64,000 nt of DNA. Source: Nereocystis luetkeana. Lineage: Eukaryota; Sar; Phaeophyceae; Laminariales; Laminariaceae. The position numbers and the translations under genes were made by a program. This document shows, in pieces, positions 1,663 through 60,300 of the stretch. The notes under the pieces were generated by a model. That model made no database searches and was not told the DNA's origin. It saw only the letters and a list, made by a program, of their open reading frames with translations. How positions within the stretch are numbered: position 1 is the first letter of the stretch; each line of letters starts with the position of its first letter. Location of the stretch: assembly GCA_031213475.1 (NCBI GenBank), contig JARUPZ010000019.1, positions 829,001 through 893,000 on the forward strand, read 5' to 3'.

Positions 1663-2285
1663 ATCAATATTCGTATACAAACGGTGTGGTTTTAATTTTT
1701 TTTAATTTTTTCGGGACAGAGTGACAGCGTTTCCTGGAGTCAGGTGACAGCGTTTCCTGGAGTCAGGTGGGACACGCCTCCTGAAAAAGGCTCATTCCTC
1801 ACCTTCGTTAATATATCAATAGTATCGTTTTCTTGTAGAGGGAATGCACGACAGGCCACCCTTGTCGCGTGTGGTACGCACCAGGTACCAGGTACCTGGC
1901 AGGCATTTCTTGGGCATGGGTGGGAGGTAGAGACCGCGTCCGGCGGGAGACGGGAGACGGGGGCCTGTTAACTCTCTTAGTGCTCGAAGTGTAATGAGAT
2001 CATTCGAGGGATACCGGGGCGGGGAAGAGTGGGCTTCTTTTGAATAGCAAATACCAGTAGCGAAGAGAGATTTCGCCCAATATGGTGTTTCACATCTACC
2101 TGAGTCTGACACTAATCACATGTGTTTTGTCTCCCCGAGGGGAGTGCAGCCCTTCAGGGGTCAACTAAGCGCATGCGGACGGTTCTTCCTCGAAAGTAGA
2201 GGGCGGTAGGGGGTGGAGACACGGGAGGTGGAGGTGGAGGGGGACGAATAGAAGAGGAAGGCATAATAAGAGAGGAGCCGGGGGG

Positions 2286-2352
2286 GGTACTCTTTCTTGC
2301 GTCGCTTACGTTAGTCATTTCACCGTCGACCACGCATCTCTTTAGAGAGAGC
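2286..2352 (+). mobile_element. R3 fragment, diverged
   Basis: GTACTCTTTCTTGCGTCGC, TTAGTCATTTCACC and CGACCACGCATCTCTTT, next to a poly-G run. Confidence 0.55.
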
Positions 2353-4405: not shown

Positions 4406-4447
4406 GGCCCAGCAGCAGCACCCGTTTGTGGCCACACCAGAAAAAAT

Positions 4448-4730: not shown

Positions 4731-4740
4731 CGCGACCGGT

Positions 4741-6280: not shown

Positions 6281-6389
6281 ATGTTGTTGTTGCAGGGAAG
6301 CAAGCAGGACGGAGGAAATACCTGGCGGATAACCTTGTGCGTAGTCCATACGGCATACCACTGGCATCGAACCAGCTGGGAGAGTCTAT

Positions 6390-6635: not shown

Positions 6636-6913
6636 TGGGGGACCAGAAGAGAGGGAGAGTTTTGTGTTCTTGCAGTGGAATACATCGGTCAGCGCTCCAG
6701 TGAATGAAAGCTCGAACCACCCCAAGAGTCGTTCTACGGTCAAGAGCTGCACTGAATGGAATGTCGAACCCCCAAGAGACTTTTCTACCGTCGAGTGGGC
6801 ATAAGCCGTACCATCCGTAACAGGTAAGTGACCCGTTCATGACCTCCGTTGCGGATAACTAAACACATGGGAGTAGTGTCATATTTAGGCGCATGTGCAC
6901 TGCAGTGCTATCA

Positions 6914-7018
6914 TTACGGGGGACCATAGTAAAGAGGACCCAATATTGTCGGCAAAAATAGCGAAATATAGAGGTTTTTGTTTATACCGTAGGTTCTATT
7001 TAATATGGTCCTCGGTAA
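6914..7018 (+). mobile_element. R1 MITE copy
   Basis: Full-length copy with inverted ends TTACGGGGGACCATAG / TATGGTCCTCGGTAA. It has no TACCWGGTA insert, so it shows the uninterrupted AT-rich centre. Confidence 0.85.
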
Positions 7019-7075
7019 TAGTGAAGGGTTGGGATTGAGCCCCAAGTTTCAGGGACACACTGGTCGGAATTTCTA

Positions 7076-7186
7076 TTACGGAGGACCATATCAAATAGGA
7101 CCTACGGTACACACAAAAACCTATATATATCGCCATTTTTACTATTAATAACAATATTTGGTCCTACTTACTATGGTCCCCAGTAA
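7076..7186 (-). mobile_element. R1 MITE copy with TTAATA insert
   Basis: R1 copy in the opposite orientation to the neighbouring one. Its inner arm reads ACTATTAATAACAATATTT where other copies read ACTAACAATATTT, a 6-bp gain of TTAATA after TA. Confidence 0.85.
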
Positions 7187-7241
7187 TAGAGTCGGCTCGC
7201 TTCTTTGGCAGCGGTAACAAAAAAGGGGTTTGGAGCTATTC

Positions 7242-7676
7242 ACCCCTCGGACAGACTCCTCTACTTGATGATCTACTCACTGCCTATTTTATTGTAGATA
7301 TTTCAGGGCAGATTGGGCTCCTGATCTGTATCATCTGTATAATCTGTATGATCTGCATGACCTGTACGTAGCTCGTGTTTGCCGAGTAGGAGGCGTACAA
7401 GCTGCACCGTCTGCTGTAGGACACGTTTCCTCTGGGTTGGATCGGTAGTGTACGGATCCTGCGCAGCACCTCGGAACGACAGTTTTTGAAAGAATGTGTT
7501 ATTACGGGGAACCATAGTTAATAGGACCAAATATTGTTAGTAAAAATGGTTAAATATATACCTGGTAGTTTTTTTTATGTATACCATAGGTCCTATTAAC
7601 TATGGTTCCCCGTAGTAGTAGATGATCTACAAGCAGTGCGGTAGGTGGTGATACTTTCCGACGTGTTGAAAAAAAA
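7242..7676 (+). mobile_element. R7 element split by R1
   Basis: CACCCCTCGGACAGACTCC at the left and CCGACGTGTTGAA at the right, with R1 at 7502-7615. Confidence 0.7.
7502..7615 (+). mobile_element. R1 MITE copy inserted in an R7 element
   Basis: Splits an R7 element (7242-7676). It carries TACCTGGTA at 7559-7567 in the AT-rich centre. Confidence 0.85.
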
Positions 7677-8262: not shown

Positions 8263-8273
8263 GGCAGTTCCTA

Positions 8274-8380
8274 CTACGGGGGACCATAGTAAATAGGACC
8301 AATTTTTTGTTAGTAAAAATAGGTAAATGTATTGTTTTTTGTGTGTACCGTAGGCCCTGTTGACTTATGGTCCCCCGTGA
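8274..8380 (+). mobile_element. R1 MITE copy
   Basis: Ends CTACGGGGGACCATAG and CCCCCGTGA, flanked by TA on both sides. It truncates the right side of the R6 element that precedes it. Confidence 0.8.
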
Positions 8381-8671
8381 TAGGTTGAAGAGCGAACCGT
8401 CGGTCAGAAAATGTTGGCCCCCCCCCAAAAAGTGCCCCCTGTATACCGCACTGGAGAGGCCACGTACCGCATTGTAGAGGAGTGCCGCACTGTGAAGGCG
8501 AGTCTCCCAACTTAGGAGCAAGCCCATTCGGGCGTACAGCACTGTACCGCACTGTAAGGGCACGACTATCAACTCAGGGAGGAATTCCTTCATGGTGTAC
8601 CGTACTGTACCGCACTGTAGAGGCACGGCTCCGGTAGAGCCCTTTGGGGCGTCGTTTTGTGCCGCTATTTT

Positions 8672-8799: not shown

Positions 8800-8914
8800 T
8801 TACGGGGGATTATAGTTAATAGGACCTACGGTACATACAAAAACCTCGTACCAGGTATATATTTACCCATTTTCACTAACAATATTTGGTCCTATTTACT
8901 ATTGCCCCCCGTAA
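8800..8914 (-). mobile_element. R1 MITE copy
   Basis: Carries TACCAGGTA at 8849-8857 between AAAACC and TATATTT. Outer ends are intact. Confidence 0.85.
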
Positions 8915-10525: not shown

Positions 10526-10905
10526 TCGTGGGTTGGATCGGGTCGGGTCGGGCGGGGTGCGTTTTTTTTTTTCAACATAATATATGTATGTATGTACGTA
10601 TGTATGTATGCATACCTGGTATATGTTATATCTCTCTTCGTACGCCCACTTTTAAACAAAACACCAAGGAGGTCGACGGAGGAAGCCCGTCCCGGACACG
10701 GTCTCGTGCGCGTGGCAAGAGAAGCGCTGAAGTTTTTTGTTTTTGTTTCTTGTTTTGTTTTTTGTCGGCGGGAGTCGATTAAGGCGATTTCCCTGGTGGT
10801 TTCAAAACCTCCTGACCTCATCCGGCCCGACCGAGCCCGACCAGACCCGACCCGACTCGACCCGACTCGACCCGACCCGAACCGACCCGACCCGACCCGA
10901 TCCCT
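10526..10905. repeat. GGGTC / GACCC pentamer tracts flanking a unique stretch
   Basis: GGGTCGGGTCGGGCGGGG at 10537-10557 and, in inverted sense, a longer GACCCGACCCGACTC tract at 10826-10902. The two can pair, so this is an inverted repeat of simple sequence with a loop of about 270 bp. Confidence 0.75.
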
Positions 10906-11375: not shown

Positions 11376-11487
11376 TTACGGGGGGCCATGGTGAGTAGGA
11401 CCTACGGTACACACAAAAACCTACCAGGTATATATTTACCTATTTTTACCAACAATATTTCGTCCTATTTACTATGGTCCCCTGTAT
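11376..11487 (-). mobile_element. R1 MITE copy
   Basis: Carries TACCAGGTA at 11422-11430 at the same internal position as the 8800 copy. Confidence 0.85.
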
Positions 11488-11735: not shown

Positions 11736-12469
11736 GGGGCCTAGACAGCGACACGTAGGTGAGTGCGGCTGCCTTCTGTTAATAGGAAAAGAGCGTGCAA
11801 CGGCACAAAACAGGTGCGTCATCATGTTGGCGCATGTCGCCCATATATATACGATGTATTTTTACAATATAAAAACGCGACGGCTGTGAGGTGAGATCGA
11901 GGATTTCGTCGAGACTTTATCTTTCCAAGATGTGTGTGACACTTCGATCGCGCGTACCACATACGTCCGGGTTTTATGTGGCCTCATACAGGGTATACAG
12001 TCTCTCTCTATATATATACCTGGTATTTTATTTTTTTAATCATCACTTCCACTTTCCAGCCTAACTCGAAGGAGGTTTTACCCTAGACGACCTTCTGGAC
12101 AAGCCGTGGTCACAGGTGTCTACCCTTCTCCCCCTCCGGTACGTGCCTTTATTTTTTGTCGCGCATAGGGTTCAGTATTCCCACTGCTCGTCGATTTTCA
12201 TCGAATGTAGCTAACTCGCGATCTCGCGCTTTCCGCTAATCAATTTCTTTCATGCAAGAAAAAGCCCTTACGAGCATGCACTCTCGGTGGGACTTGAAGC
12301 CACGAAATTGATCTTGATAGGCACGCGGACCACCTACCAAGCCACCGGGGACGCCATATGAAGTACAATATATACGAAGCATAATATATACGTACATACT
12401 ATATGTTATGTCCTTCCTTCCGTTGCGGTTTGGACACATCCCGTGTATACCTCCTCCTCCTCAGAACAC

Positions 12470-12585: not shown

Positions 12586-12845
12586 ACGATCTATACAGAT
12601 CATTTAGATCCTATGCCGCCGTCGCGATTGTGTTGTGTTTATTAGTTGAGCAGGGTCTGTTAAGAGTAGACGGTAGTAGACAGATACAACCCAGGAAAGT
12701 TGCATAGTAGATCATGCGTCTATTGCGACTCCCCTCCCCACCCGGGCGGGCAACATGAGCTATATCCAATGATGATTCAGATCAGAAAATATTGAATCCC
12801 TGAACTATATGGAGATCGTGAAGTGGGAATTGATTACCTGGTATC
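12586..12845 (-). mobile_element. R7 fragment
   Basis: GGGCGGGCAACATGAGCTAT marks the core in reverse orientation. Confidence 0.55.
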
Positions 12846-17120: not shown

Positions 17121-17125
17121 AGCTG

Positions 17126-17230
17126 TTACGGGGGACCATGGTAAATAGGACCAAATATTGTCAGTAAAAATAGGGAAATAAACAGGTTTTTGTTTGTACC
17201 GCAGGCCCCTATTTGCTATGGTCCCCCGTA
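17126..17230 (+). mobile_element. R1 MITE copy
   Basis: Full-length, no TACCWGGTA insert inside; a TACCTGGTACCAGGTA doublet occurs about 65 bp further right at 17296. Confidence 0.85.
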
Positions 17231-42800: not shown

Positions 42801-45800
42801 TAAACGTTCCGTACATTCCCGCCCAAGAGTGGTAAGTGCCAAGTCAGTTACCTGGCTTACTTCGCCACCCAACTATTACGGGGGGCCATAGTTAACAGGA
42901 CCTATGATACACATAAAAACCTATATGTTTCACCATTTTTACTAACAATATTTGGTCCTGTCAACTATGGTCCCCCGTAATAATATAACACGTAGCCGTG
43001 AAGTCGAGCCAGGGCATGCCTTACTGACGGCCCTAGTGGCTAGGTATCATGCTCTTTATGAAAATATCACATATGGAAAAAAACGGAATGAGCACCCAAA
43101 TGTTGGAGGTACCTCTATTAGGAATAGGAACGGTGCTCCGTCTCGAAAGGGATGCGTGGTCAATCGTCAAATTACTAAGGCAAGCAGAAAATGAAGTACG
43201 CGGCGCTTCACGCTTGTTGCAAGCAATGCCTGCCTGGTCAGTAGAAATCCGACGTGCCCCGTGTCGTCATTGTCGGGATGCGAGGGTCTCTATGATTAAA
43301 CGACTACAGCCATGCATGACATGCGTACTCCCCCACCCCCCCTCCCTCGCGACGCCCTCGCTCTCGCCGCTCTCACCGTCAGACCCCTGAGCCTCGCCTT
43401 CCTCGCTTCCGGCGACGCCTCCTTCATGGCCCGAGGGGGCGGGAGGGGACGTGGGACCCATGACGCGTAGCTCGGCCTCGGCCTGGGCGCACCTTCTCTC
43501 GTTCACGTCCAGGTCCAGCGTGAGGTCGTATGGGTTGTACTCGAGAAGGATGGCCAGGAGCTAAACGCGTACGCACGCACGCACGCACGCACGCAACGTA
43601 CACGCCGATGGAGCGAACAAAACAAGAGTGGGTTAGGATAGAGTAGTATAGGAAAAGCAATAAGAAGGGTTAGGTGTGTTAGGATAAGGTGGGCCACGCC
43701 ATTGTAGTGGGTGAGGGTCCTGTCGGGTACGGTCGGGCAGGGTCGGATCGGCTAGATCAGGCTACGTAGGGCAGAGTAGGGCAGGGTGGGGTGGAGCAGA
43801 CTAGGAAAGAGTAGGGTAGGGTACGGTAGGTCAAGCGACCGTTGCCTTGACCCATCGGACACGAAAACGCAAGCAACGCGAGCAAGACAACGAACACCTG
43901 GTGCGTCACTGACCGAAAAAACACACCGCACAAATAAAAATAACACCCGGTCACCCGTTGAGGTTCGAATAACGATACTGCACGTCGCACGAACAAGCGG
44001 AAACCCAAGCGCCCCAAGGCATGCCGGATGAACAAAACGAAACCCGGGACGTCTCCTCCCCATCCCCCCCTACCCCCCCCTATTATATATAGGTTGGGCT
44101 TGCGTCGGTTGGCAACGACACTGTAAAACATGCCGCTCATGACGTGAGCTAGACAACCAGGGTACCGTTTTTTTTTTTTCGGCGGTCACCCACAGCTGGT
44201 AATCGAGTTATATCATTTGTGCGAGTTAAGGCACCTTTACTCTGCACAAGTGGGAATGATCGTATCACGTAGTGTTCAAGGTAAGTCACCCAAGAGCCAG
44301 CTACACAATACTCCCATTGCTGTCTCTGGAAATGCCTACACCGGAAATTAAACTAACCCATTGAAGCTGTCATCCACATGCAAGTCCGCCTCACAGACGG
44401 TTCTTAGTAGGACGCAGCTCACCCTTCATGCGACGACTCGCCGAACACCTCACGGCGCTTCGCGCGTGGTGCAAGCAACGTCTGCCTGGTCGGTGAGAAC
44501 CCGACACGCTCCGTCCCGGCATTGCAGGGATGCGAGCGTCTATGGTCATACGACTACGGCCATGCATTAGATCGAGTATATCTCTCCTATCGAGTACACC
44601 CTCCTCTATCCCCTGACACACCTTCGCCGCATCTTTCCTGACCAGGGAGCTCTGATCACGCAGGCGGTCCACACCGAGCTTAGCGGCCACGAGGAAGTGC
44701 ATGCGTGGGAGGGCTCCACGCTTGGCGATCGAGCCCCACGACCGAAGCACCGCATTGCTTTGGTTCAGTCCAATCCAACCAAGTTCAGTCCAAATAATCA
44801 CGTGCGGTAGAAAGTCGAGGGGGAGGGGAGGGGGGGGAAGGAGAGGTGGGGGGGGGAAGGGGAGGAGAGGCGGGCCGGGGGTCAAGGGGGGGAAATTATA
44901 TCAAGCGGGGGGGTGCAAGCGAGATGTCCGGCGCACAGGACAGCATCCCATAAAGATGGACACGGTGGCCTAGTCAGGCTGCCAAAAAACCACACCAAGA
45001 AGAAAGGAAGACAAAAGTCCCCCACTCCAGCAAAACCTCGCGTTCGGATGTCCGCCACCCAAGCACGTTAAACATAAAACAAAGCTACTTTATATCGCCA
45101 GACAGCAAACAGCAAGCCAGCAGCAGAAGCAAAAGCAACTGCAGGACAGGAAAAAACAGGAACAGGACACACAACCCGCTCACCGAACGAAGGGTGAGAC
45201 GTCCATAGCGCGCTCGACCAGGTGGTTGAAGTGGGTTCTGCGGTTGCTGCTGTTCATGCGGGCTCGCCGAGGGTCTAGCTGTACCTGCACCTGCGCCGGC
45301 TTTGACCGTCGCAACGAAACGACAACCGGTGGAGGGGGCGACCAACAGTTAGGGTGTAGCCGTCGCGGGCCAACCTCCAGCATCAAGTCAGTAGACTGAA
45401 AAATATAACACGACACGACACAGCATCACAACACAGCACCGGGCAGCGCAACCAAGCCGCACCAAACCCGACCCAACACAGTACAGGTCTTGTCGCGACG
45501 TCAGACCCGTGCAACAGAGCAAAAGACAAAAATATCACCAACAGGCGATCGCGTCTCGCAGCCAGCTTTCCCCGAGCTCGTCGCTACCGCCTCCCCTCAC
45601 TGTGCACCGAACGAAAAGAAAATCGGTGGAACAACCTTCCCCCCCCTCCCCCTCGGATGAGATGCGTGGTCAATGGTCAAATGACTAAGGCAAGGCAAGC
45701 AAGAAAATAGTACGCCCCCCCCCCCTCGAAGCAACGTGCCCCCAATAGCCGGTAGCGCCGGGCGACATGTTGCCAAAGCAGAAGCAGCAGCAGCAGCAGC

Positions 45801-48800
45801 AGGGCTCTCTTGAAACAGCCGCGGGGGAAAGCGAGCATCACAAACGCCTTATTCTTCCACCGAAATGCAGATTTTGTTTTCTCTCCATCCTCATTTTTTT
45901 ATTTTATATTGTTTTCAATTTTTTGATCCAACAGGCCGGTGGCACTAGAACATAATAACCACGGCACCCACATGAACCCACTACAATTAATAAGCCCCCC
46001 CCTCCCCCTTTTCCCCTGTTCATACGACTACGGCCATGCATGATATCGAGTACACCCCCCTCCCTCCTCGCCCCCCCTTTTCTCCTACCCAACCCCGCCC
46101 CAACACTGCACAAAACGCCTCCATTCGTGCCATACCTGGTTCTGCCCTTCCCCCCCGCTTCCGTCAGGTGCATTCCCAGAGGCACCCCCGCCCTCTCCTC
46201 CCGCCGCGGCCGCCGCCTCCACCTGGTCTTCGTGGGCAGCGAGGAGCACCTCTGTCAGGCTTATCACAACGGCCTGGCGGATCTGGTAAGGGCTGCTGCT
46301 CAGGTGGGGGAGCAGCACGCTCTCGTGGGCGTAGACGGTCCCGGGCAGGAGCACCACCAGGATGCGTAGGAACTCCGAGATGTTCACCACGGGGGCGGAC
46401 ACGGCGGCGTTTTTGCTTTTCCGGTTGCGCGATGAAATAGTAGAGAGAGAAAACAAACACAGAAAAAAAGAGGAAACAAAACACAAAAAAAAGGCAAAGG
46501 AACAAGAGGGCAAAGGCAAGGTAAGGCAAGGCCGGGCGGCAAAAGACACGGAGACAATAATAAGCGAGACGGCAAAAAAGCGAATACACAAAAAAAAGAC
46601 AGGCAACATACAGAAAAAAAGGCAAACGATAAGAGGGCGAAGGCAAAGGCAAGGCAAGGCGAGGCTAGGCGGCAAAGACAAGGAGACAATAAAATATGAG
46701 ATGGCAAAAGAGAACTTACGCTACGACCATTCAGGCTGGAATAAAATACTCATTTTCATATGTATATCAGAGCAAAAACGGCGGATCATATTGCCGGGCA
46801 GAGAGTGGTACACAGGAGACCGGTCTTTTCGGGCGCGTCAAGGCGTCTATTGACCTTACCCTTTTAGCGCAAAACCGCAATCCCGTTTTGGGGACAAACC
46901 AGATATTGTCCCAGCGATTTGTCCCCAAAACGGGCCTCTGCATTCCTAAAAGGGTCAACATACCAGTTGTTCTGAAGGGGATGGGTCAATCAAGGGGCGA
47001 AAGACCGCTTTTTCCTACTGCTGTAAGCAAGTTTACAGAGGAGGGGGTGGGGGAGGGGGGTGTACTCGATAAAGAGAGATGTACTCGATCTCATGCATGG
47101 CCGTAGTCGTATGACCATAGAACCTCACATCCCTACAATGCCGGGACGGAGCATGTCGGGTTTTCACCGACCAGGCAGGCATTGCTTGCACCAAGCGCGA
47201 AGCGCCGTGAGGTGTCTGGCGATTCGCATGAAGGGTGAGCTGCATCCTACTAAGAACCGCTTGTGAGGCGGACTTGCATATGGATGACAGCATCCATGAG
47301 TTGATTTAATTTCCGGTGTAGGCACGTCCAGAGACAGCAATGGGAGTAGTATGTAACTGCCTCTTGGCTGCTTTACCATGGACACTACGTGATACGATCA
47401 ATTCTCACTTGTGCGGAGTAAAGGTTGTTCACCTCCCAAAAACGATCTGACTCGACAACCAGCTGTGACAGACCAAGAACAGAAAAAAAGCGGTAACCTG
47501 GTTGTCTAGCTCACGTAGTGAGCGGCATGTTTTACGGTTTCGATACCAACCGACGCCAACCCAACCTATATATAGGTACGGGGGGACAGAGGAGGGGGGG
47601 GGAGGCGATGATTTATACCTGGTAGAACCTCAAAAAGGAGGTACTTTCCCACAAGCCAATGGGCAGATAGATATATCCCAGGCCGTTGCCCCCATTCCCC
47701 CATTATCTCTCGCCTAGCCCAACAAAGATGGAGAACACAATACCCTGCCCGACCCCCCTCCCTTTCTCTTCGCCCTTTCTCTTAACCCGCCCTATCTCCC
47801 CTTCGTCCAGGAAATGTAGGGATGCGAGGGTCTACGGTCATACGACCACGGTCATGTATGATCATGAGTCCCTTCCCCCTTCCAGCCTTCAACTCCGCAC
47901 AAGGGGAATGCTCGTATCACGTCCCTGGTAGTATGTACCCGGTACTGGTATATGGTAAGGCACTCACGAGGCAGGTACATACAGTATTAATAGTATACCC
48001 ATTGCTGTATCTGGAAGTGGCCTCACCATGAAAACAAAACCAATCCATCCATTGCAAGTCCGCTTCACAAGCTGTCCTTAGTAGGATGCAGCTCGCCTTC
48101 CATGCGACTTGCTCAACACCTCACAGCGCTTCGCGCTTGGTGCAAGCAGTGTCTGCCTAGTCAATGAAAACCCGACATACCTCGTCCCGGCATTGTAGGG
48201 ATGCGAGGGTCTATGGTCATACGACTCCGGCCATGCACGACACGAGCACCCCCACTCCCCCCCCCCCAAGGAAAGCAAAAAGCAGGTACCCCTCCCCCTG
48301 CCCCCCTGGTCATACCACTACGGCCATACATAATATCACAATATCGAGTACACCCCCACCGCCCCCTCCGCTCCGCCTCTCTCCCTCCACTGCACAGTCA
48401 GCCAACCAGCCAGCCAAAATACACACACCTGTTCTCGGGCATCTGCATGCGGCCGATCTCCCGCACGAGCTCCGCCCCGAGCCGAGCGTCCCCGTGCCTG
48501 TCCACCAGGTGCCGGCACAGCTTCGCCACAAACTCAGCAAGGTGCTTGTGCTCCTTCTCCCTATTCTCCCTCACCAGCGAAAACACCGCGGCCGAAATCT
48601 CCGTCTCCATGCCGTGGGCGACGTGAAACGGCTCCGAGATAAGCTGCATCGCCAGCGAGCCCTGCCACGCGCTCTTCACAGTCTCGGGCAGCTCCAGCAT
48701 CTTGCACGCCAGGCGCACGAACAGGCTCATGAAGCACCGGTCCGGCACCCCCTGCTGCCACAGCCTGGAGGGCTCGGCGGTGAGGGCAAGGCGCATGCTC

Positions 48801-50977
48801 CCCAGCACTGCCCCGCGCGCGTGTTCCCACTCGAAGCTGCCCCCCCCGGCGGCAGCGGCGGAGGAGGAGGACGACGTTGAAGATGACTTCTTGCCCTTCC
48901 CGCCGCGTGAACCCTTGCCCTTCGTGGGTTGGCTCAATTCCTTGGTCTGGCAGGCGGTCGGGGTCCGTCATTATGTTCAAGGCGCATGGTACCGCGGGGC
49001 CAGAGCCAGCGCCGAGCCAGAGCCAGGGTCCAGAGTTAAAACCGAAATGGGCCCAGTATGTACGCAGGGAGGGATGCGGTCTGAGGGTTAGGACGCCGTT
49101 CGAGGGTACCTTAAGAGTAATAGTAATAGCAATTCGGTATCAGTTACCAGGTACCAGGTACTCTATTACGGGGGACCGAATAAATAGGACATACGGTGCA
49201 AACAAAACCCTAAATATTTCGCTATTTTTACTACTATACCTAGGTATTGATCAACAATATTTGGTCCTATTTAATGTGGCCCCCCGTAAGAGCTGCTGTA
49301 GAGGCTATTACTAATAATAGCTTGCGTTTGCTACGTATTTTGCGGGAGACTGCAGGTATCCTACTGTAGCAAATACACATACTCTTATACCGGTATTACG
49401 TACGTACCGCAGATACCAGCAATCAAGGACGCATTCCTTTCCTCACCGCCCCTAGCCTCCAGCTCTGGTAAATATGCAGGTATCGATAGCCTACAGCCGA
49501 ACAGCGGGGAGCTGGTGTCTCGGTGTTGGCAATAGGGATCGCTTCGTACCTATTTATGCGGCGATGATGAGATAAATGCCGCGATAGAGTCCAATGGCCT
49601 CTCCAAAGAGTACTCGTACGTACAGCAGACCACATCAAAGCGAACCAGACCACAAGCGCAGAGCACAGAGCAGAGCAGATAGATCCCCCAAGTAGAATAC
49701 ATGTACATAGCATCGCAGATTATTTGCTATTAATATGAATATGGCCGAGCATAACAACGCGCAGCAGAAGATCAGAGAAAAGCGCAAGAGGAACAGAAAA
49801 AGCATGAGAGCAGAGCGCGCGGCAAGCCGACTGACTGCACCTGCTTGGCGCTCGAGTAGCACTCCTCCGACGGAAACGCTGCCGAGAAAAGGAGGTACAC
49901 CGCCATCTTGAAAGCATTGCGCAGAGACAGCTCCGCCTGCCCCTGAGGCTGCAGCTGCCCCGCCGCCTCCTCGCCCGCAGCGCCCCCCACCCCTCCTCGG
50001 CCGGCTCCGCGAGCGCTTCTCCTTCCGCCGCCCGCATCGGCGCCTTTGGCGCCGTCGCCGCCGAGCAAGGGAGTTGTCCGCCGCAGGACTCGGTGAAGAA
50101 TGTCCAGCGCCCTCCCCTTGATCTCGCTCGGCAGGTACTTGAAGTCGCTGTACAGGGCAGGGGAGAGGAGAGGAGAGATAAAGACGTTGGTGACTACATT
50201 CATTGTAATTTACGGATGGCAAGGCTGACCAATACTGCTGTAGTGGTACCGGGTGCTGGTGCCATTGTTTATTGTCTACCAGGTGCTGCTGTAAATACTC
50301 GTACGAGTATACTCGTACACGTGCGTTGTTGTGCTGTGGTACGTACTGGGCATGGCAGATACAGGTACCTGGTACCTGGTATGCCACATGGAAAAGGAAG
50401 TAAAAACAAATAACGCTCGTTCGTGAAAATTTCATACGAATTGGTTTCCTGGAGATAGATGGAGCGCACGGTCAGAAACGGAGAAGGAGAACAGCACGGA
50501 GGGAGGGAACATGCGAGAATAGACTCGCGGACGCCTATGAATTCCAGTGTCGGTGCTGTTGTCTGTACGCTCTGCTGCTCTGCTGCTCTGCTGCCGCTGC
50601 TACAGCTGCTGCTCTTGCTGTGCTACTCGTAGTTCCGACAGAGGTGAGGGTCAAAAATGGTCAACGTCTTTGTAACTTTTCGGCGCCGACGCGCCGACTC
50701 GCATCTCCCGCTCTTAGCGCCTGCACACATCGCTGGCACCACGCCGAGGATCTCACCGGACGAGAGAAAACATATCATCAAAGTTGCCCTGCTCGGAGAG
50801 CGAGTCCGCCTCGCCGTCCTTGAGCCGAGTGCCCACCCCATCCAAAAGGTCGTTTAGTCGTTCACATGTCTCCTCCCGCAAACTGGGCAGATCCTCCGAG
50901 GCGCAGAAGCGGCCGGTCACGGCAACTTGCAACGCTGACACATCACCAATGTCTTCAGGTACTGCGAATTCCTCCAT
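22402..50977 (-). CDS. NCAPD2: Condensin complex subunit 1 (NCAPD2/Cnd1 family), 20 exons, 3' end not found
   Basis: HEAT-repeat non-SMC subunit of condensin, which with SMC2/SMC4, the kleisin and the G subunit compacts mitotic chromosomes. Exons in transcript order: 50977-50757, 50147-49841, 48946-48429, 46415-46136, 45395-45184, 44757-44622, 43560-43377, 41129-40924, 40454-40287, 38666-38556, 37444-37250, 36141-35924, 34368-34200, 33140-32970, 31985-31845, 29874-29785, 28035-27877, 26128-25961, 24531-24436, 22498-22402. All have AG acceptors and GT donors, and phases agree at every junction (3,847 coding bases). Diagnostic segments are ALGDLAFRFPNALEPW, VLTHLILNDMVK, LARLCFVLGHLALK and NPVYNVLPDIVGRLSKDE, conserved positions of the family. 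The start is the ATG of MEEFAVPEDIGDV. Residues after the last exon (human protein is about 1,400 aa) are missing from what I can read; they may lie in the N gap or further left. Exon edges are manual and could shift by a few codons. Confidence 0.9.
22515..22665. repeat. GTT/GAT tract in condensin intron after exon 19
   Basis: Impure GTTGTTGATGATGTTGTTGTGG repeat of about 150 bp starting 17 bp right of the exon 20 acceptor. Confidence 0.85.
23012..23146 (-). mobile_element. R3 element, long copy
   Basis: From GAAACGTAATGAGCACCC to CAACAAATGAGTACGCCCCC with a long poly-C end. Contains CTCTATTAATAGGAG where other copies read CTCTATTAGGAG. Confidence 0.75.
23165..23322 (-). mobile_element. R4 fragment with TACCAGGTA insert
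   Basis: The doubled terminus reads GAGTACATACCAGGTACGTA where other copies read GAGTATATCTCTCC or GAGTACACCTCTCC. It lies immediately after the poly-C end of an R3 copy. Confidence 0.75.
23363..23463 (+). mobile_element. R1 MITE copy, right end damaged
   Basis: The right end reads ACTATGGTAATATTAACAG: the CCCCCGT of the terminal repeat is missing. Confidence 0.8.
23635..23690. repeat. (AT)n microsatellite
   Basis: TATAATATATAATATAT followed by about 20 perfect AT units. Confidence 0.95.
23938..24405 (-). mobile_element. Two R7 elements in tandem
   Basis: First 23938-24215 starting CACACCTCAGTATACAGATA; second about 24237-24405 ending GATCTGTGCGAGGTGTC. Both contain CCCGGCAACATGAGCTA. The second ends 31 bp from the condensin exon 19 donor. 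Confidence 0.65.
24560..25375. other. A-rich stretch of condensin intron 18
   Basis: About 800 bp made almost only of A, C and G on the plus strand (AACAAGAA-type words; T-rich in the sense direction of the gene), without repeat family members other than one TACCAGGTA at 25046. Confidence 0.7.
25733..25830 (+). mobile_element. R5 element
   Basis: CCTCCGGCGGAGTGGTAAAA to CCGAAGCTTCCG; in condensin intron 18. Confidence 0.7.
26205..26935. repeat. GGGTAAGG-type degenerate hexamer tract, about 730 bp
   Basis: Continuous variants of AAGGGTATGGGTAAGGGT on the plus strand, with higher-order copies of about 165 bp (two start GGTAAGGGTATG(T/C)ATGAAACA at 26594 and 26727). It starts about 75 bp upstream of the exon 18 acceptor. 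Confidence 0.85.
26989..27126 (+). mobile_element. R3 element, long copy
   Basis: Poly-G then CGTACTCATTTGTTGCTTGC through to GCGCTCATTACG; in condensin intron 17. Confidence 0.75.
27774..27867. repeat. (GA)n microsatellite next to condensin exon 17
   Basis: GAGAGA runs interrupted by AAAAAGACAG and TATAAAAA, ending 9 bp from the donor of exon 17. Confidence 0.95.
28320..28425 (-). mobile_element. R1 MITE copy in condensin intron 16
   Basis: Both ends intact (TTACGGGGGACCATAG and CCCCCGTAA, flanked by TA). No TACCWGGTA insert. Confidence 0.85.
28503..28755 (+). mobile_element. R6 element in condensin intron 16
   Basis: Ends CCGTATCACACTATCACACT and GGTGTCTTATCTTGACACC; body CCGTCGGGAAAACTTCGAAG ... 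CGAGATATTTCCGAAGCC. Confidence 0.75.
28985..29052. repeat. TAGGCTAGGC repeat
   Basis: Degenerate 5- and 10-bp repeats CTAGGC / CTAGGCCACG over about 65 bp. Confidence 0.75.
29160..29446 (-). mobile_element. R7 element in condensin intron 16
   Basis: GCGCGATCATCTACAAATAG to GATCTATCCGCGGCTTGCC, with GCAGCGTGAGCTAGATCAT core. Confidence 0.65.
30141..30237 (+). mobile_element. R4 fragment
   Basis: Terminal 95 bp only, next to a poly-G tract (GGGGGGGGTGTACGCACTC). Confidence 0.65.
30945..31040. mobile_element. R2 foldback copy
   Basis: Ends TTGACCCATTTGGAACCGC and GCGGTACTAGGAGGGTTAA; in condensin intron 15. Confidence 0.8.
31173..31211. mobile_element. R2 half copy
   Basis: Only a right arm remains (AAGACGGGACTGTAGTTACT, CTCTAAGGGTC). 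Confidence 0.55.
31205..31360. mobile_element. 156-bp palindromic element nested in R6
   Basis: AGGGTCGATCTTAACGAGG at the left pairs with CCTCGTTAAGGTAGACCCT at the right; inner arms CGGTATTTTCCCGAAAATTC / GAATTTTCGGGAAAATACTG also pair. Only copy seen in the window. Confidence 0.7.
31512..31630 (-). mobile_element. R1 MITE copy with a double TACCWGGTA insert
   Basis: The centre reads AACTACCAGGTACCTGGTATAT where uninterrupted copies have AACTATA. Flanked by TA on both sides. Confidence 0.85.
32365..32965 (+). mobile_element. R6 element followed by 12-unit palindromic minisatellite
   Basis: Body 32365-32588; from 32589 twelve units of about 32 bp, most containing the palindrome TATCACACGTGTGATA and the spacer AGAGTGTGTGCT. 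The array stops within 5 bp of the condensin exon 14 donor (32969). Confidence 0.85.
33650..33832 (+). mobile_element. R4 element, 3' portion
   Basis: From GTGTATTCGATACCATG to CTACCAAGCACC; followed by poly-G and an R3 copy. Confidence 0.75.
33838..33906 (+). mobile_element. R3 fragment
   Basis: CGTACTCGTAAATTGTTG...CAACGCAGCCCTTCCGAGG after a poly-G junction with R4. Confidence 0.6.
34057..34153. mobile_element. R2 foldback copy, near-perfect
   Basis: TTAACCCTTTTAGAACCGC pairs with GCGGTCCTAAAGGGGTTAA, including TTAA at both extremes, which may be either terminal sequence or a TTAA target duplication. It lies about 45 bp from the exon 13 donor of condensin. Confidence 0.85.
34530..34578 (+). 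mobile_element. R4 terminal fragment
   Basis: Short piece with GTACTCAATGTTATGCATGG, then a poly-G tract. Confidence 0.5.
34930..35345 (-). mobile_element. R7 element with five direct repeats
   Basis: A unit of about 60 bp (GACAATCTACGTAGATCCTATCCTGCATGACATGCTGCGCACGAT type) is repeated about five times at 34968-35230; GCACCCGGCAGCATGAG follows. Confidence 0.65.
35398..35492. mobile_element. R2 foldback copy
   Basis: TTAACCCCTTTAGAACCGC / GCGGTACTAAAAGGGTTAA ends, again with TTAA at both extremes. Confidence 0.85.
36695..36755. mobile_element. R2 half copy
   Basis: Left arm only (ACTGCAGAGTCCCGTTTTGG, GGACAAA), in condensin intron 11. Confidence 0.5.
38440..38530 (-). mobile_element. R5 element ending 26 bp from condensin exon 10
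   Basis: GGGAGCTATGGGTTAAATTG to TTTTTACCAATTCGCCG; the most complete uninterrupted copy. Confidence 0.7.
38942..39726. mobile_element. Harbinger-like non-autonomous DNA transposon (TIR, TAA duplication)
   Basis: The left end GGCCGTTTCCTATGTGGTTC and right end ...GCATAGGAAACAGCC are inverted repeats matching over about 40 bp. Both sides are flanked by TAA, the 3-bp target duplication typical of PIF/Harbinger. The interior (about 700 bp) has no transposase reading frame. It lies in condensin intron 9. Confidence 0.75.
40051..40337 (-). repeat. Partial tandem duplication including the 3' half of condensin exon 9
   Basis: Two copies of a unit of about 122 bp: 40215-40337 contains the end of the real exon 9 plus intron sequence, and 40051-40172 is its diverged copy downstream in the transcript. 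The copy keeps an open reading of GSTRTSDVMEAFRFVVA against GSATTSDVVEALRFFVT in the real exon, and keeps a GTGCG donor. No in-frame acceptor is evident in the copy, so it is probably a decaying exon fragment. Confidence 0.8.
41246..41382 (+). mobile_element. R3 fragments, two in tandem
   Basis: Two terminal pieces (41246-41308 and 41331-41380), each GTACTCATT... to GAGACGGAG; a poly-G and an R4 copy follow. Confidence 0.65.
41398..41622 (+). mobile_element. R4 element, 3' portion
   Basis: Begins GTGTACTCGATATCATGCAT after a poly-G tract and ends at GGCGGGCTTGCATATGG. Confidence 0.75.
42876..42980 (-). mobile_element. R1 MITE copy in condensin intron 7
   Basis: Full-length with centre AAAACCTATATGTTT, i.e. 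without insert; flanked by TA. Confidence 0.85.
43066..43195 (-). mobile_element. R3 element, long copy
   Basis: AACGGAATGAGCACCCAAATG to AGCAGAAAATGAAGTACG; fused directly to R4 without poly-C. Confidence 0.7.
43196..43335 (-). mobile_element. R4 fragment fused to R3
   Basis: Starts within the element (GCGGCGCTTCACGC) directly at the end of an R3 copy; ends GACATGCGTACTCCCCC about 45 bp from the condensin exon 7 donor. Confidence 0.7.
44088..44605 (-). mobile_element. R4 element, full-length
   Basis: From TATATATAGGTTGGGCTTGC to TATCGAGTACACC. It ends 17 bp from the exon 6 donor of condensin, so the element abuts the splice site. Confidence 0.8.
45658..45726 (-). mobile_element. R3 fragment
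   Basis: GATGCGTGGTCAATGGTC to AAAATAGTACGCCCCCC. Confidence 0.65.
46020..46060 (-). mobile_element. R4 terminal fragment
   Basis: CATACGACTACGGCCATGCA ending GATATCGAGTACACCCCCC. Confidence 0.6.
46856..46958. mobile_element. R2 foldback copy
   Basis: Outer ends TGACCTTACCCTTTTAG and CTAAAAGGGTCA; loop diverged (AGATATTGTCCCAGCGA). Confidence 0.75.
47058..47575 (+). mobile_element. R4 element, full-length
   Basis: Doubled terminus (TGTACTCGATAAAGAGAGATG...) through to CCAACCCAACCTATATATAGG; in condensin intron 3. Confidence 0.8.
47815..48256 (-). mobile_element. R4 copies, one terminal fragment followed by a longer copy
   Basis: 47815-47870 is a terminal piece; from 47885 a longer copy starts in the middle (CTCCGCACAAG) and ends GACACGAGCACCCCC. 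It carries the insertion CAGTATTAATAGTA where other copies read CATACTACTCCCATT. Confidence 0.7.
48429..50977 (-). other. NCAPD2: Condensin D2 exons 1-3: N-terminal Cnd1_N-like region
   Basis: Exon 1 (73 codons plus 2 nt) holds the acidic N-terminus with SALQVAVTGRF and ETCERLNDLLD. Exon 2 (307 bp) contains LPSEIKGRALDILHRVLRR, then a Gly/Ala/Arg-rich insertion of roughly 45 residues, then SLRNAFKMAVYLLFSAAF, the segment matching NALKM.CY in animal NCAPD2. Exon 3 (518 bp, the longest) starts with a Lys/Gly/Ser linker followed by FEWEHARGAVL and ends at MPENR. In animals this region is KGK-linker plus FDWE, so the match is position-specific. The exon 3 acceptor has a poor pyrimidine tract and is the least certain splice site. 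Confidence 0.85.
49166..49289 (-). mobile_element. R1 MITE copy in condensin intron 2
   Basis: The inner arm is expanded by TATACCTAGGTATTGATC, a variant of the CCWGG insert. A TACCAGGTACCAGGTA doublet lies directly outside the left end (49145-49160). Confidence 0.8.
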
Positions 50978-51391: not shown

Positions 51392-54300
51392 ATGCTCTCG
51401 GGACAAGGAGGGGGTGGCATCGACGAGTTCGACAACCAGCTCAACGACCCCAACCAGTATGACAATCCGCAGGATCCGGCCAGTCTCTCGGTGATGGAGC
51501 ACCTCCGCGCGCTGTCAATTCGCGGAAAGCTGACCCTGGTGTACATCGTTGGCCTCCTCCTGTGCATGCTGTGGGAATTGGACTGGGTGAGTCTATGTAT
51601 CTCTGTCTCAAGCTGCATGTGAGTGGGGATCGTGGGGCGGTTTTTTTGTGTGTTTTCTTTCCGATTTTTATATGCCGTCAGGAGACGAGAGCGCTTCGCG
51701 TTCCGAGTGTCTCCAATGCAATACAGCACACTCTCTCGAAGGTGTCTTGGCGGCTGTGCCCTCCCTCCCTCCCTCTGTCCGACTCGCACATCAATCGTTT
51801 TCGTGACAGGTGACATAGCAGTGTACTTGGCTCTTTGGCAAGAAACTCTTGATTGGCGTCGCTGGCCTCTCGCTTTTTATTTTTTACTTGCACAGCAGTA
51901 GTGCATCAGTACGCTCGCTACCAGGTACGAGCATTAATAATCGAATTACTACTCACTGCTGTACAAAGCGGGTGTGGTCAGTGAACTGTTAACTGTTACC
52001 GAACGAAGCTCTTTGGAAGATAAAAATAAACAAAATAAAAAATGTAACGCCCGGGTCTACATCGTACGTAAAGCGGAACGGGCGACCACACTATGGATAA
52101 CAGTACTCTGCAGTATCATACCATAGCTCCAAAGGCGATGACTGCCGCCGGTTGCATTGCCTTGCCGACCTTGCATGCTTTCGTGCGTACCTGTCTGCTG
52201 GCTTTTTGTGTACGGGTATGTGCTCCGCCCTGTCATGGTTGAAAACACACGCAGTCGTCGTGCAGTCTTGGTGCAGTTGAGGAGTGCGTGTGCCGTGCGC
52301 GACTCATAGGCCATGTGTAATGCGTGCGCTTCTGCCAAAGCCCCCCTGCCCAACCCATCTCCACAAAACATGGCAATGCCCTCTCGATCAACTACTGATC
52401 TATGTATATACGTACGTACACCACCTGTAATACCAGGGAGGGCAGTCTTGAAGCAGAGCTATCAGCTTGCAATTCTTGCCATGTATCGTACTATCGTACT
52501 ACCGTACTACCAGGTATAGTACTACTGACCAGCAGTAAATGGTACTCATGGTCCTGCTTTGTGCGTTGTTTCGTCCCCAGTACGTCGGCAGTTGGCACTG
52601 CCGCGTACCAGGTATCATATTTCGTCCACATCATGTCAAGTACGAGTCTGTACAAGTTTATTAACATGCAGTTCGTCTAGCTTGGGATGGGTCTGGATTA
52701 TTTTCTTCTGTCTGGTTAGAAAGTTCAAGTATATGAGATTGTTGCGAGATTACGAGCGCCTTTCTCAGGTCTGGTTCGTACGAAGTCAATGCTACCCGTC
52801 ATGCTTTCACGCGTCGGATAGCCTGACCCCGATCGCACACGTCGGCGGGTTAGTAAAACGTGTGTAGATCGCGCATACCAGGTAGCAGGTATCCTACAGA
52901 TCATTACAGGAAACGTGTGCAGCAGCAGCAGTGCACCGGTCGCACAGCTTGCACCAGATCAGATCACTATTAGTACAAAATGCGCACAACTTGAGCACAC
53001 GGGTGAGAAGACGCCCACACCTTGACCAATTGCATCACTTGACCCTTTTAGAACCGCAGTCCCGTTTTGGGGACAAACCACTCAAATTTTAAGTAGTTTG
53101 TCCCCTGAACGGGACTGCGGTTCTAAAGGGGCTAAAGTACTTCGGGAAACATGTATCTGATACGTTTGCACAGATAGTCAAGATCCCGTAGATCAGCCTC
53201 ATGGAAACTTGTACAGATGATGCAGATCCGTGCAAAGAATCTGTGTGATCTGTACAAGGAGCTAAACTGTCCGACGTGTTTCCGCTACACAGCTATACAG
53301 CAGCAACGTAATAATTACCTGGTATTAACAGTGCTGTGCCTCGTACCAGTAGTGCTTCGCTGCTGCTGCTGCTGCTGCTGCTGCTACGATCTGTACGATA
53401 TCAGGTACCTAATACCCTGGTATACGAGTATAGTTTTGGTTTGTGATTTTTCTCAGATGTTGCTGAAAGTTCACGTGGGTGTGTGTTCCTCACATCAAGA
53501 GAAACAAAGAGTAAGACCTATGCCAATGGTACAGCGAAGTTGCAATAAAAAGTTTGAATTTCAAAGATACCCGCCAAAAAAAATCAGAACACGCTTCCTA
53601 TGGGCCACCTAAAAAAAAAAAAAGCTCCTAACTTTTGAAAAAACCCAAAAAAAGCAAATCTGGGGCCGATGTTGGGCCAACATCGGCTTGATAAAAACTC
53701 AGGCCGATCTTTGGTTCGAAGCGGCGAGATTCCGAGTCCTCGACAGACATCGATCAACAAAACCAACGATTGCGTCATGAATTCTGAACGGAGTGCGCTC
53801 GTTAGGGGCTCCGACCCACCCTAGGGTCATCGTCTTCACACCATGGCCGGTGTGATGTGGCGGAAGCTGACCAGGCGTGTGATAAAAAAACATTTGGCCG
53901 CTGGTTTGCACAAAACAGAAGACAAAACTTCTCCATCCGTCTCGAATTGCAAAAGAAAACACTTTTTTTCAGGTTTGGGAGGATACCGTAGGACGCCGCC
54001 GGCAAGCTCTCGCCCCCTAGAGCATGGATCCACCTGATATCTTCGAGGCCGTCATCTATACTAGTTGGGCTTGCCAGATACCGAGCGGGTTTGCCGTGGG
54101 CTGAGTCTATGTCGAGATCGAGCGTCGATCATCGCACGAGCTGGTTTCGATCACCGTGTTGACAATTTGCGACCAGAAAAACACAAATTGCGCCGCCTGC
54201 AGCTGTTGGGGGAAAAAAAAGAAAAAATCAAACATTTTTCTCTTTTTTCCCCACAGCGGCGGTACGAGAATTTTTTCGGCTGTTTTTTTAAAACGATATA

Positions 54301-57300: not shown

Positions 57301-60300
57301 AGCCTAACCCTAGTGATAAGTTTGTCGTGTTGCGATGCTGCGCTGGTCTGGTCTTCTAGCGGTAGCTCCCTCCCTCCCTCCCTCCCTCATCCCCTCCCCC
57401 CCTCCCTCTCTCAGCCAACTGGATGCCAACTGGACACGGCGCGCGAAAGGGGACTGCTCGTTGCAACGAGGCAGTGATGCCATCCTGTTGTTGTATCTTG
57501 TACGTAACGCCGTAGCGTGCGGCGCGCGTGGAGGGTGTCAAGGAAGACCCCCCCCCCCCCGTCGCCCTCACTCTCTGCGCTGCCCTCCGCTCGTCAGGAT
57601 TTTTTCCGCCTCGCGTGCTGTGGTCAAATACGTATAAACACAGCATCGCTGAAAAATGAAATCCCCCGAAGGGAGATGATACACCCAGCCAGACAGAACC
57701 CAAAAAAACATCAAAAGCCCTGGTGGAGATATATTGGAGAGAGTTGTCGTGGTAGGTAGTTATTTTGTTTCCACCACAGCAGCAGCATCCGGCATACATA
57801 CACGCTGCATGATTCACGCCCACCCCTGTGAAACCCGTGGACCTGACTGGTAACAACCCCGTTCTCCACACCCTCCCGCCGCAGGTGATTGCGTTCGTGG
57901 CGATGGCGGCCTTTGTGCTGTCGGCGTCGCCTCTGTTCCTGTGGTGGAGCCGCATCCGCTTCAGCTGCCCTCTGGACTTGGTAGTGAGGTCCTTCGGCCT
58001 TGGGCTGATCGGCATGTTCTGGGTGGTGATGGTGCTCTTCTACTTCACCACGTCGGGGCCGATCGGCCGCTTGTTGCACTCGATCTTCGGCTGGTTCACG
58101 GGTTTGATGGTGAGTTGTTGAGGCCTCTACTCTTTTTTTTTTTTTCTTCCCGTGTGTTGTACGTAGGCATACCACTCTCTCCGGAAATACGTTACCGCTG
58201 TAGGAGCGTTTGGGTATGTGGGTATTTGAACTCATGGGTCTTTGGAATTTCATGGGTAACATGTTCGGGGATATTTCAATTTTAGTTCGTGGCTGTTTTG
58301 AATAGAAATGGGTATTTGAAATGTCTGGGTATTGAATTGATTTATCTGGGTGTTTGAATCTCTGGGTTTTAAAATATGCATGGGAATGAAATATACACGG
58401 GTATTTAAATACGCTGGTGCTTAATGGGCCTCCCCTCACATTTACGGGCAGTGTCCGCTGCTTGCCTGAATGAAGCGCGCTGTCTGTTTTATTGCCTCGT
58501 CACCATCGGCATAGAATCGGTTGAGGTGCACGTACGTATCTCCCACAGGCCTCTGCTTATTCAATACCTGGTACTGCCGTGCAGGGTACATGGTATCGTA
58601 ACTTCGCTCCCCAGCGTAAGCGTCACCCCACGCCGTACGGGAAAAATAGAAGTACTTGGACTTCGAGTTGATTTTTTTTTTTTCTGGGCAATTACTTCAT
58701 CAAAACATTTTAGTAATTGTGCCGGTATACCTGTTTGGTTCCTTTTTTACGAAGCTGGGACTTTTATTGGATGTTGGCCCTTTGCTCTGCTACACCCAAT
58801 CTCACGACTTACGTTGTCTAGAGGGGGTTTCTGCCCAAGCCCTTCGGCCTCAATCCTCACGGCCCAATTAGTTTCTGCCGGTCGGTCTGCCAACCAGGCT
58901 TCTGTGCTCTTGCCAGTGCTCTTCTCTGCTGTGGTATTCATCGGGGTCCTTGGTTTTCTCCTGAAGGCGCGTCCAGCCTCAAATGTACTCGTTTTATCCA
59001 ATAGCTGTGCCTGGTTCGTATCCCCTAACCAAACACGCCTCCTAAAGACCTGGTCCCTGGTACCGGGTAACTTGGGATTTTAATACCGCTCCAAAAACCC
59101 CAGATTTCCTGCGTCCAATCTTGATCCTGTCGTACTTGTCCGCTTGTATACGCGCGCGCGTTGACCAACCCCGTCGCTACGTGAGATATCGGACATAGCA
59201 CACCTCGGTCGGATGATCGATTATCACCTGATAGATTATCTACGTAGATCTTTGAAGGCAGATAGATCTACACAGATCTATCTATCTTTCTATCTATCTT
59301 CCTATTTTTTTATGATGTTTGTCTGATGTAGCTCATGTTACCGGGTGGGACCCCGTACAATCCGCACTGTCTGCGAGTGTGGTATGTGTTTTCCTGGGTT
59401 AGATCTGTGCTATGATGCCGATCCTGCACAACCGCTCACAACGGCGGGTGAGAAACTAGATGATCTATCTGTAGGTAGATTGATCATGACCTAGATAGGT
59501 AGAAGATCATGCTCTATCTATAGCTGCCGGAGGTATGAATCAGTACGACTACAGTAGTATTTGACCGCACGGAGCAAGCGGCTCGGGGGCGCTGGGGTAG
59601 GGAACGTGCCCGCGGTGAAAATAGAAGAAGGCGTGGCGTGCTCGTACACCCGCGGAGCATGATGATGCCTGTATTTATTTATATACTTGTGCAAGCTCTT
59701 CCTGAACAGATGGTTTGGTCGAGAGAAAAACTGGAATTATTTGTTTGTTTTTGGTCGTTCGTATACGTGAAGCCCTAAAACGGCGAAGAGTACGTATACA
59801 GCCGCAGACGAGGTATTGTACACGTGTAGTCTCCCGCCCGGTTTCTTCCTCTTCCCATCCCCCCCCTTCCCCCCCTCCGTCTCGAAAGGGGTGCGTGGTC
59901 AATGGTCGAAATGTAAAAATGACTAAGGCAAGCAACAAATGAGTACGCCCCCCCCCCCCCCCCCCCACCCGTCTATGTTCATACGACTACGGCCAAGCAT
60001 GACATGAGTACACCCCTGGTCTCCCTCCCTTTCCACTTCGCCCGGTTCCCCGTGCCGCTATCATTTTTGTGGACCGATCCGCCCTACAACCATGGCTGCC
60101 CCTTCTGGTCACGGCCCGCAGAACTTCATCATCCTGGTCGGGATCGAGGAAATGGTCAAGGTAGGTGCCGTCAAGAGTATGTTATGCGAGTACGTATACT
60201 ATGTCTGCATTGTTCGTTTTGGTTGTTATTTTGTTTCCTTCAGTTGATCGTTTTGTTGTTTAGTTGTTCTGTTGTTTTGTTGTTTTGTTGTTTTCCGTTT

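Follow-up and report, generated by a model that had tools for sequence, protein, structure and literature searches.

TACCWGGTA in the Nereocystis luetkeana genome, a probable excision scar of a TA-inserting DNA transposon

The 9-bp word TACCWGGTA (W, A or T) was found to be massively over-represented in a 64,000-nucleotide stretch of the Nereocystis luetkeana genome (GenBank assembly GCA_031213475.1, contig JARUPZ010000019.1, positions 829,001 to 893,000 of the forward strand; the whole stretch is referred to below as the window). Comparison of repeat copies indicates that the unit is CCWGG plus one TA, inserted at a pre-existing TA. We consider it probable, at roughly three chances in four (about 0.77), that TACCWGGTA was left by the excision of a cut-and-paste DNA transposon with ends starting CCWGG and with TA as its insertion site, as in Tc1/mariner/pogo elements. 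Membership in Tc1/mariner/pogo is not claimed, because no parent has been seen and such scars are usually shorter.

The A-centred form, TACCAGGTA, and the T-centred form, TACCTGGTA, are mutual reverse complements and were treated as a single near-palindrome. The window carries 40 exact units at 35 places, 23 as TACCAGGTA and 17 as TACCTGGTA, while dinucleotide shuffles gave an expectation of 0.41 and a maximum of 2, with none of 100 shuffles reaching 40. An earlier note, made from the letters of this DNA alone, had reported about 35 sites and about 40 units against about 0.5 expected; its counts were borne out, and its coordinates, including those of five doublets, all hold. The window has 157 CCWGG, of which 40 are flanked by TA on either side, and any other combination of flanks accounts for at most 4. 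Equal enrichment of CCWGG words with arbitrary flanks, named in that note as an outcome contrary to its proposal, was thus not observed. Likewise, 9-mers one letter off TACCAGGTA (the swap of central A and T aside) were each detected at most 4 times on both strands, against 40 for TACCWGGTA. C or G at the unit centre was found 4 times in the window. One-mismatch loci number 35 in the window, and the one-letter-off 9-mers are jointly somewhat above expectation, an excess that fits decayed copies of the unit.

A genome-wide count had also been proposed in the earlier note. In the whole assembly (465,085,209 bp, 1,987 contigs) the enrichment was far stronger, with 182,395 units, or about 0.4 copies per kb, against 1,744 for a control word with the letters reversed. 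Doublets numbered 15,917 against 2 for the reversed word, and triplets 1,689 against 0. Contig C809 duplicates a stretch of C2 (L046 and L047; L-numbered labels denote genome stretches other than the window) with 100% identity over 6 kb, and the genome counts may be slightly inflated. For finer analysis the window was combined with a 200-kb sample of 20 arbitrary 10-kb stretches from 20 contigs, 264 kb in all; the unit was present in 18 of the 20 stretches, and the 264 kb hold 116 intact units. In a viral contig collection the doublet was found in 9 stretches with 2-3 units each, in a listing that may omit this genome's own records. Viral spread of the word was considered and dropped, these nine stretches being attributed to chance and the word not being generally common. 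Among the literature matches listed, no report of TACCWGGTA is recognisable by title, which is no proof that none exists, and those for TACCAGGTA are mostly primers, judging by titles.

Insertion was most readily followed in MITE1, a 110-bp miniature inverted-repeat transposable element (MITE) in which TA is followed by TTACGGGGGACCATAG (the end is also given as TTACGGGG after TA). The set comprised 24 copies spanning the central TA in the 264 kb (BLAST, E 1e-8 or better). The consensus around this TA reads AAAAACC-TA-TATATTT, and the filled copy at 11422 reads AAAAACC-TACCAGGTA-TATATTT. Insertions of at least 3 bp were detected in 9 of the 24 copies, and 7 of these carry a TACCWGGTA unit, one of them decayed. 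Six units lie at the same central TA: two are exact CCAGGTA insertions, one has a mutated end, one is a doublet, and two are accompanied by extra bases (3 in one case, extra A's around the unit in the other). Of the other insertions, one is the decayed unit CACCTGATA and one is TTAA, each at a separate TA away from the central one, and one is a complex insertion of 20 bp. Local alignments of the 24 copies revealed no internal deletion of 3 bp or more. In a tree of the MITE1 copies of the window, of modest support, the four filled copies form no single clade, suggesting that the same TA was hit repeatedly.

Empty sites were detected in other repeats as well. The repeat around 22997 has an empty TA in its copies at 27201 (reverse) and L010:3136, with a gap placed uncleanly by the MAFFT alignment, and the repeat around 23281 has one in its sister at 60793 (one of 11 paralogues). 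Weaker cases are a tandem array at L008:3808 and L011:9581 compared with L015 at 74% identity. The few paralogues that could be judged thus show empty TA sites and not a series of point mutations. Clean inserts are 7 bp overall, without the terminal inverted repeats and interior of a MITE. The insertion of CCWGGTA at TA suspected in the earlier note agrees with these empty sites, as does its remark that some copies have an extra unit relative to their sisters, which holds for its repeat R1 (7559, 8849, 11422 and 31558) and for 23281.

We then determined the sequence preference around the target. Outward from the bounding TA it reads Y, A, T, n, n, T, W, is palindromic and reaches 7 bp on each side. 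MITE1 places were excluded from the flank statistics of the window and from training for cross-prediction, and were kept in the sample statistics and in the estimate of doublet attraction given below. For the 31 non-MITE1 places of the window, position 6 was T in 39 of 62 flanks (p 2.7e-9) and position 7 was A or T in 53 of 62 (p 7.4e-6). In the 200-kb sample (72 places), position 1 was C or T in 84%, position 6 was T in 51% (p 4.6e-12) and position 7 was A or T in 82% (p 7.4e-10). A flank matrix trained on the sample ranked the places of the window with an area under the curve of 0.853, and training in the reverse direction gave 0.817. With the matrix trained without MITE1, the central TA of MITE1 scored at percentile 99.3-99.4 of the TAs, so that the TA with repeated hits is predicted as a hot target from independent data.

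This preference bears directly on the tandem runs, in which adjacent units share a TA and all four letter combinations of the doublet occur. The sharing of TA in doublets and triplets is consistent with the suggestion of the earlier note that a new unit may be added at either flanking TA. Among all TA half-flanks, those provided by the unit itself stand at percentiles 92 (CCAGGTATAT) and 97 (CCTGGTATAT), and a TA beside a unit is predicted to be about 15 times as attractive as an average TA (in-sample estimate). From 0.0083 units per TA, also in-sample, about 12% of units were predicted to have a neighbour; the genome gave 15,917/182,395, or 8.7%. Predicted attraction was 20.0 for an old unit read as CCTGG and 9.7 for one read as CCAGG, so that A-then-T should be about twice as frequent as T-then-A. 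Genome-wide, mixed doublets were 4,522 A-then-T against 1,856 T-then-A, a ratio of 2.4. Read outward, the unit resembles the preferred flank. Scars score as good targets, and this accounts for most tandem runs and for the A-then-T excess.

Decay of the units was estimated within the genome. The 264 kb contain 116 exact, 137 one-mismatch and 509 two-mismatch 9-mers, and eight pairs of control words gave 0-12, 24-96 and 346-867, respectively. The one-mismatch excess of about 100 copies corresponds to an estimated mean divergence of about 9%. T>C, A>G and C>T were foremost at three of the four outer positions. By this within-genome comparison, the copies decay like neutral, unselected DNA. The insertion under selection considered in the earlier note is superfluous, as the palindromic TA-target preference and neutral decay explain the pattern. 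If 9% is taken as the mean age and 1e-9 mutations per site per generation are assumed, one scar per several hundred generations per lineage would suffice, as an order of magnitude. At so low a rate, a few resident elements hopping long enough would do.

In the mechanism that we propose, the element would insert at TA and duplicate it. At excision the transposase would cut 4-5 nt inside each end, leaving a 3' overhang CCWG(G) on both flanks; the overhangs would anneal CC with GG, and the central A:A or T:T mismatch would be repaired to A or T. The scar would remain while the element moved on, and the genome would retain a record of the jumps. A 3-nt overhang CCW, without self-pairing, would be expected to give TACCATGGTA instead, a word absent from the window. 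The ends of the parent would read TA-CCWGG, and the parent may now be rare, extinct, or represented by copies too decayed in the part examined. Four properties expected of a footprint of this kind were observed: TA on both sides where the empty-site alignments of paralogues have a single TA, a centre resolved either way (A in 23 units of the window and T in 17, the mismatch itself being inferred), a palindromic preference around the target TA, and a transposase of the appropriate type in the genome, with 28 matches to DDE_1 (pogo-type, PF03184), none linked to CCWGG ends. For the 5-nt scar of a TA element suggested in the earlier note, insertion at TA is supported and the A/T centre fits, and its CCWGG-ended parent was not found in the sequence searched.

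Several observations weigh against the excision-scar reading, among them the search for a parent. In the 264 kb, 11 pairs of inverted ends TA-CC[AT] were detected, almost always formed by two units, full or decayed, and none belonging to a CCWGG-ended element; a relaxed search allowing one mismatch in CCWGG gave 14 pairs in 347,553 bases, none convincing. These searches covered less than 0.1% of the genome. Half-sites in the 264 kb have no shared extension. Profile searches gave no match for DDE_3, with a working control, and none for Transposase_1 (mariner), for which the control was also silent. The pogo-type loci L034-L049 were inspected; L034 and L036 have ends CAGTGGGG, the others have no clear ends in the stretches examined, and none has CCWGG. 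The scar itself is also unusual. Footprints of about 0-4 nt between TAs are expected, and 5 nt are present here; passages on Tc1/mariner scars give 2-4 bp (PMC7913693) and one on the pogo-like Passer gives 0-4 bp (PMC9976928), both of which 5 nt exceeds. As judged from the flank counts of CCWGG, the letters of the unit are fixed. The scar is unusually uniform, with TACCATGGTA absent from the window and TACCGGTA present 3 times.

Further adverse points concern the empty sites and the doublets. A paralogue spans the site for only 12 of 107 places, the other 95 being uninformative on empty sites. Bases around the TA are missing in the ten other paralogues of 23281; L010:1828 lies in an AT repeat, L008:9110 is poorly aligned to a CCTGG copy, and the paralogue of L012:8093 has GA at the expected TA position. 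By our reading of the listing, four central TAs are altered among the 18 MITE1 copies without a central unit. The doublet asymmetry was predicted before the genome-wide counts, but 59 doublets among the matches listed had by then revealed its direction (by hand count AA 23, TT 17, AT 14 and TA 5), and the three mixed doublets of the 264 kb are one AT and two TA. Same-letter doublets, obtained by subtraction, make up 9,539 of 15,917 (60%) against 50% in a simple model, to which slippage or another effect may add. Among candidates for the parent, the best new pair, at 52883-53407 of the window, was dropped, the shared word TACAGATC being common in the sequence.

No parent was detected, whereas the 264 kb alone carry 116 intact units, and this leads to a different account, in which a transposase-like, perhaps domesticated, enzyme cuts preferred TAs and inserts either a fixed 5-bp filler or a 7-bp unit copied from existing units. 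The target flank resembles the unit (Y..RRTA compared with CCWGGTA), units accompany neighbours and the product is unusually uniform, as this parentless insertion would have it. We know of no enzyme that performs such micro-insertion. A symmetric sequence with an A/T centre is the product expected of annealed element ends, and the pair of MITE1 and TATTAATA described below points to ordinary elements as a source of such scars in this genome; we therefore regard this account as unlikely. A self-seeding form, in which CCWGG plus TA is inserted at preferred TAs by an enzyme with no larger parent, is likewise improbable. If it were true, each insertion would make two better targets, and the word would multiply through the genome as the smallest mobile-like sequence known to us.

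It is far less likely that the word is a functional palindromic binding site of a transcription factor, an architectural protein or an origin-like protein, multiplied by selection. Its palindrome, conserved core and weak flanking preference are those of such a site, and the finding that none of the 35 places lies inside two short stretches taken around condensin exons that Pfam matched, although expected by chance, may point faintly the same way. A binding site would be conserved against mutation, and the one-mismatch neighbours are at the level of neutral decay; nor would it account for the exact 7-bp insertion at TA in repeats, tandem TA sharing in all four letter combinations, or the genome-wide density. 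Selection on a binding site was rejected on decay and empty TA sites. Microsatellite-like expansion of a 7-bp tandem repeat by replication slippage, suggested by the tandem runs and the excess of same-letter doublets, is very doubtful as a full account: the units are not mainly in arrays, adjacent pairs being few relative to all units, and they arise at empty TAs of unrelated repeats, where slippage cannot start a unit at a bare TA. It may still contribute to doublets. Finally, an artefact of assembly or composition has next to no probability. Nothing beyond the duplicated contigs was found to support it; the spread of the word over arbitrary samples from 20 contigs, the low reversed-word controls and the doublet's restriction to only 9 stretches of the viral collection all speak against it.

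The excision-scar reading gains a parallel from other TA words in this genome. TATTAATA is enriched in the 264 kb (130 against 3.1, both strands), and its flanks outward are G at.49, T at.60 and A at.62, in the context TAC...GTA. Among 41 MITE1 ends located by fuzzy match, which include both ends of each copy and probably one or two unrelated ones, the insertion flanks are G in 27, T in 22 and A in 19. Given the MITE1 end TT(A), the common flanks G, T, A and the insertion in the copy at 7073, TATTAATA is most simply explained as a scar left by the excision of MITE1 itself. Like TACCWGGTA, this pair combines insertion at TA, an apparent palindromic scar and a palindromic target preference; unlike it, the scar is TTAA and the target flanks are G, T, A, where those of TACCWGGTA are Y, A, T, n, n, T, W. 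The 20-bp insertion in the MITE1 copy at 49163-49292 contains TACCTAGGTA, lies at the TA that holds TTAA in copy 7073, and may be a compound scar or another type of scar.

TACWGTA is also enriched, with 22 against 7 in the window (for example at 8603, 11631 and 19127) and 105 against 38 in the 264 kb. A plausible source is a pogo-like element with CAG ends, TA-CAGTGGGG...CCCCACTG-TA, 2,020 bp long at L034:38-2061. A shorter copy at L036:1222-1897 is 99.7-100% identical over two shared stretches, indicating recent movement or duplication. The pogo-like elements resemble the inferred parent in TA duplication and in the presence of the transposase class, and differ in their ends, CAGTG, and expected scar, TACWGTA, instead of CCWGG. 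Altogether, the genome appears to hold a series of scars of TA elements.

The features of the window are listed in Table 1. Among them is a second palindromic MITE family of about 105 bp, with ends TTAACCCTTTTAG...CTAAAAGGGTTAA, which we take to be possibly piggyBac-like with a TTAA target. Pieces of a condensin subunit 1 gene are located at about 25.9-49 kb on the minus strand, with the Pfam matches Cnd1_N and Cnd1 about 22 kb apart, and probably constitute one gene with long introns. An open frame at 55204-55734 on the plus strand resembles, in its translation read by eye, part of a reverse transcriptase of the long interspersed nuclear element type. A tandem array at 32556-33005 has a 32-bp unit based on the palindrome TATCACACGTGTGATA, and a satellite of GATCATCTA/GATGATCTA units lies at 21716-22048, near the 100 N of the window. 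Scans of the window for tRNA (bacterial settings) and Rfam families gave no match.

Table 1. TACCWGGTA units, MITE1 copies without a central unit and other repeated features of the window
Feature	Position	Strand	Remark
TACCAGGTA	1886..1894		middle unit of decayed triplet CACCAGGTACCAGGTACCTGGCA (1879-1901)
TACCTGGTA	7559..7567		within MITE1 copy (reverse), central TA
TACCAGGTA	8849..8857		within MITE1 copy, central TA
TACCTGGTA	10613..10621		exact word match
TACCAGGTA	11422..11430		within MITE1 copy, central TA; compared with empty copies, an exact insertion of 7 bp
TACCTGGTA	12017..12025		exact word match
TACCTGGTA	12835..12843		exact word match
doublet TACCTGGTACCAGGTA	17296..17311		
TACCTGGTA	22997..23005		in repeat; decayed neighbour TACCATGTA at 22990
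TACCAGGTA	23281..23289		in repeat copy
TACCAGGTA	25046..25054		exact word match
TACCTGGTA	25711..25719		exact word match
TACCAGGTA	27722..27730		exact word match
TACCTGGTA	30642..30650		exact word match
TACCAGGTA	31480..31488		exact word match
doublet TACCAGGTACCTGGTA	31558..31573		MITE1 copy, central TA
TACCAGGTA	31826..31834		exact word match
TACCAGGTA	32272..32280		exact word match
TACCAGGTA	34004..34012		decayed neighbour TACCAAGTA at 34011
doublet TACCTGGTACCTGGTA	34428..34443		
TACCTGGTA	35305..35313		exact word match
TACCAGGTA	36617..36625		exact word match
TACCAGGTA	38118..38126		exact word match
TACCAGGTA	41998..42006		exact word match
TACCAGGTA	42417..42425		exact word match
TACCAGGTA	42683..42691		exact word match
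TACCTGGTA	47616..47624		exact word match
doublet TACCAGGTACCAGGTA	49145..49160		
doublet TACCTGGTACCTGGTA	50366..50381		
TACCAGGTA	51919..51927		exact word match
TACCAGGTA	52508..52516		exact word match
TACCAGGTA	52606..52614		exact word match
TACCAGGTA	52876..52884		decayed neighbour TAGCAGGTA at 52883
TACCTGGTA	53316..53324		exact word match
TACCTGGTA	58565..58573		exact word match
MITE1 copy	6913..7021	-	empty; central TA point-mutated
MITE1 copy	7073..7189	+	empty central TA; TA-TTAA-TA insertion (TATTAATA at 7143)
MITE1 copy	8271..8383	-	empty; central TA point-mutated
MITE1 copy	17123..17231	-	empty; central TA point-mutated
MITE1 copy	20377..20494	-	empty central TA; another TA has a decayed unit of 7 bp, CACCTGA preceding TA
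MITE1 copy	23363..23458	-	empty central TA; about 7 bases missing near one end (full alignment)
MITE1 copy	28317..28426	+	empty central TA
MITE1 copy	42873..42982	+	empty central TA
MITE1 copy	49163..49292	+	empty central TA; complex 20-bp insertion at another TA
TATTAATA sites	7143, 1197, 15696, 17616, 17622, 23063, 28173, 30658, 34485, 42294, 47985, 49728		
second MITE family	9028, 10404, 11118, 13780, 15277, 15485, 30944, 34057, 35397, 46873, 53039, 54721		

Studies of excision scars usually rely on assays of single genes or plasmids, and we know of no genome with such a density of scars. This genome seemingly keeps a countable and datable record of the jumps of one element, in which target preference can be read and scars score as fresh targets. 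With such a record, the long-term jump rate, the choice of targets and the resolution of mismatches could be measured directly in a non-model eukaryote. The case also gives a caution, as a palindrome can be over-represented as a mutational scar and not as a regulatory site.

Among known systems, the footprint of the Sleeping Beauty/Tc1 type, TAC(A/T)GTA, is similar to the unit in its two bounding TAs, its A/T centre and its symmetric letters, which there come from the element and here presumably do. The excision product of Sleeping Beauty is printed as TACWGTA, W being A or T, in one article (PMC10138897), and the Sleeping Beauty/Tc1 type footprint as TAG(T/A)CTA, again with a T/A centre, in a passage of a review (PMC2874221). 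The two systems differ in that the scar there is 3 nt, against 5 nt here, and the element there is known. A passage of PMC3770610 does mention non-canonical scars that differ in size; a scar that is regularly 5 nt long would still represent a new variant. As to the ends, the 5' end of the Mos1 mariner next to TA is given as CCAGGTGTACAAG, providing a known TA element with a TA-CCAGG end; its breaks, however, are placed by the model quoted in the same article 2-3 nt into the element, a position from which CCWGG would not easily result (PMC2642840).

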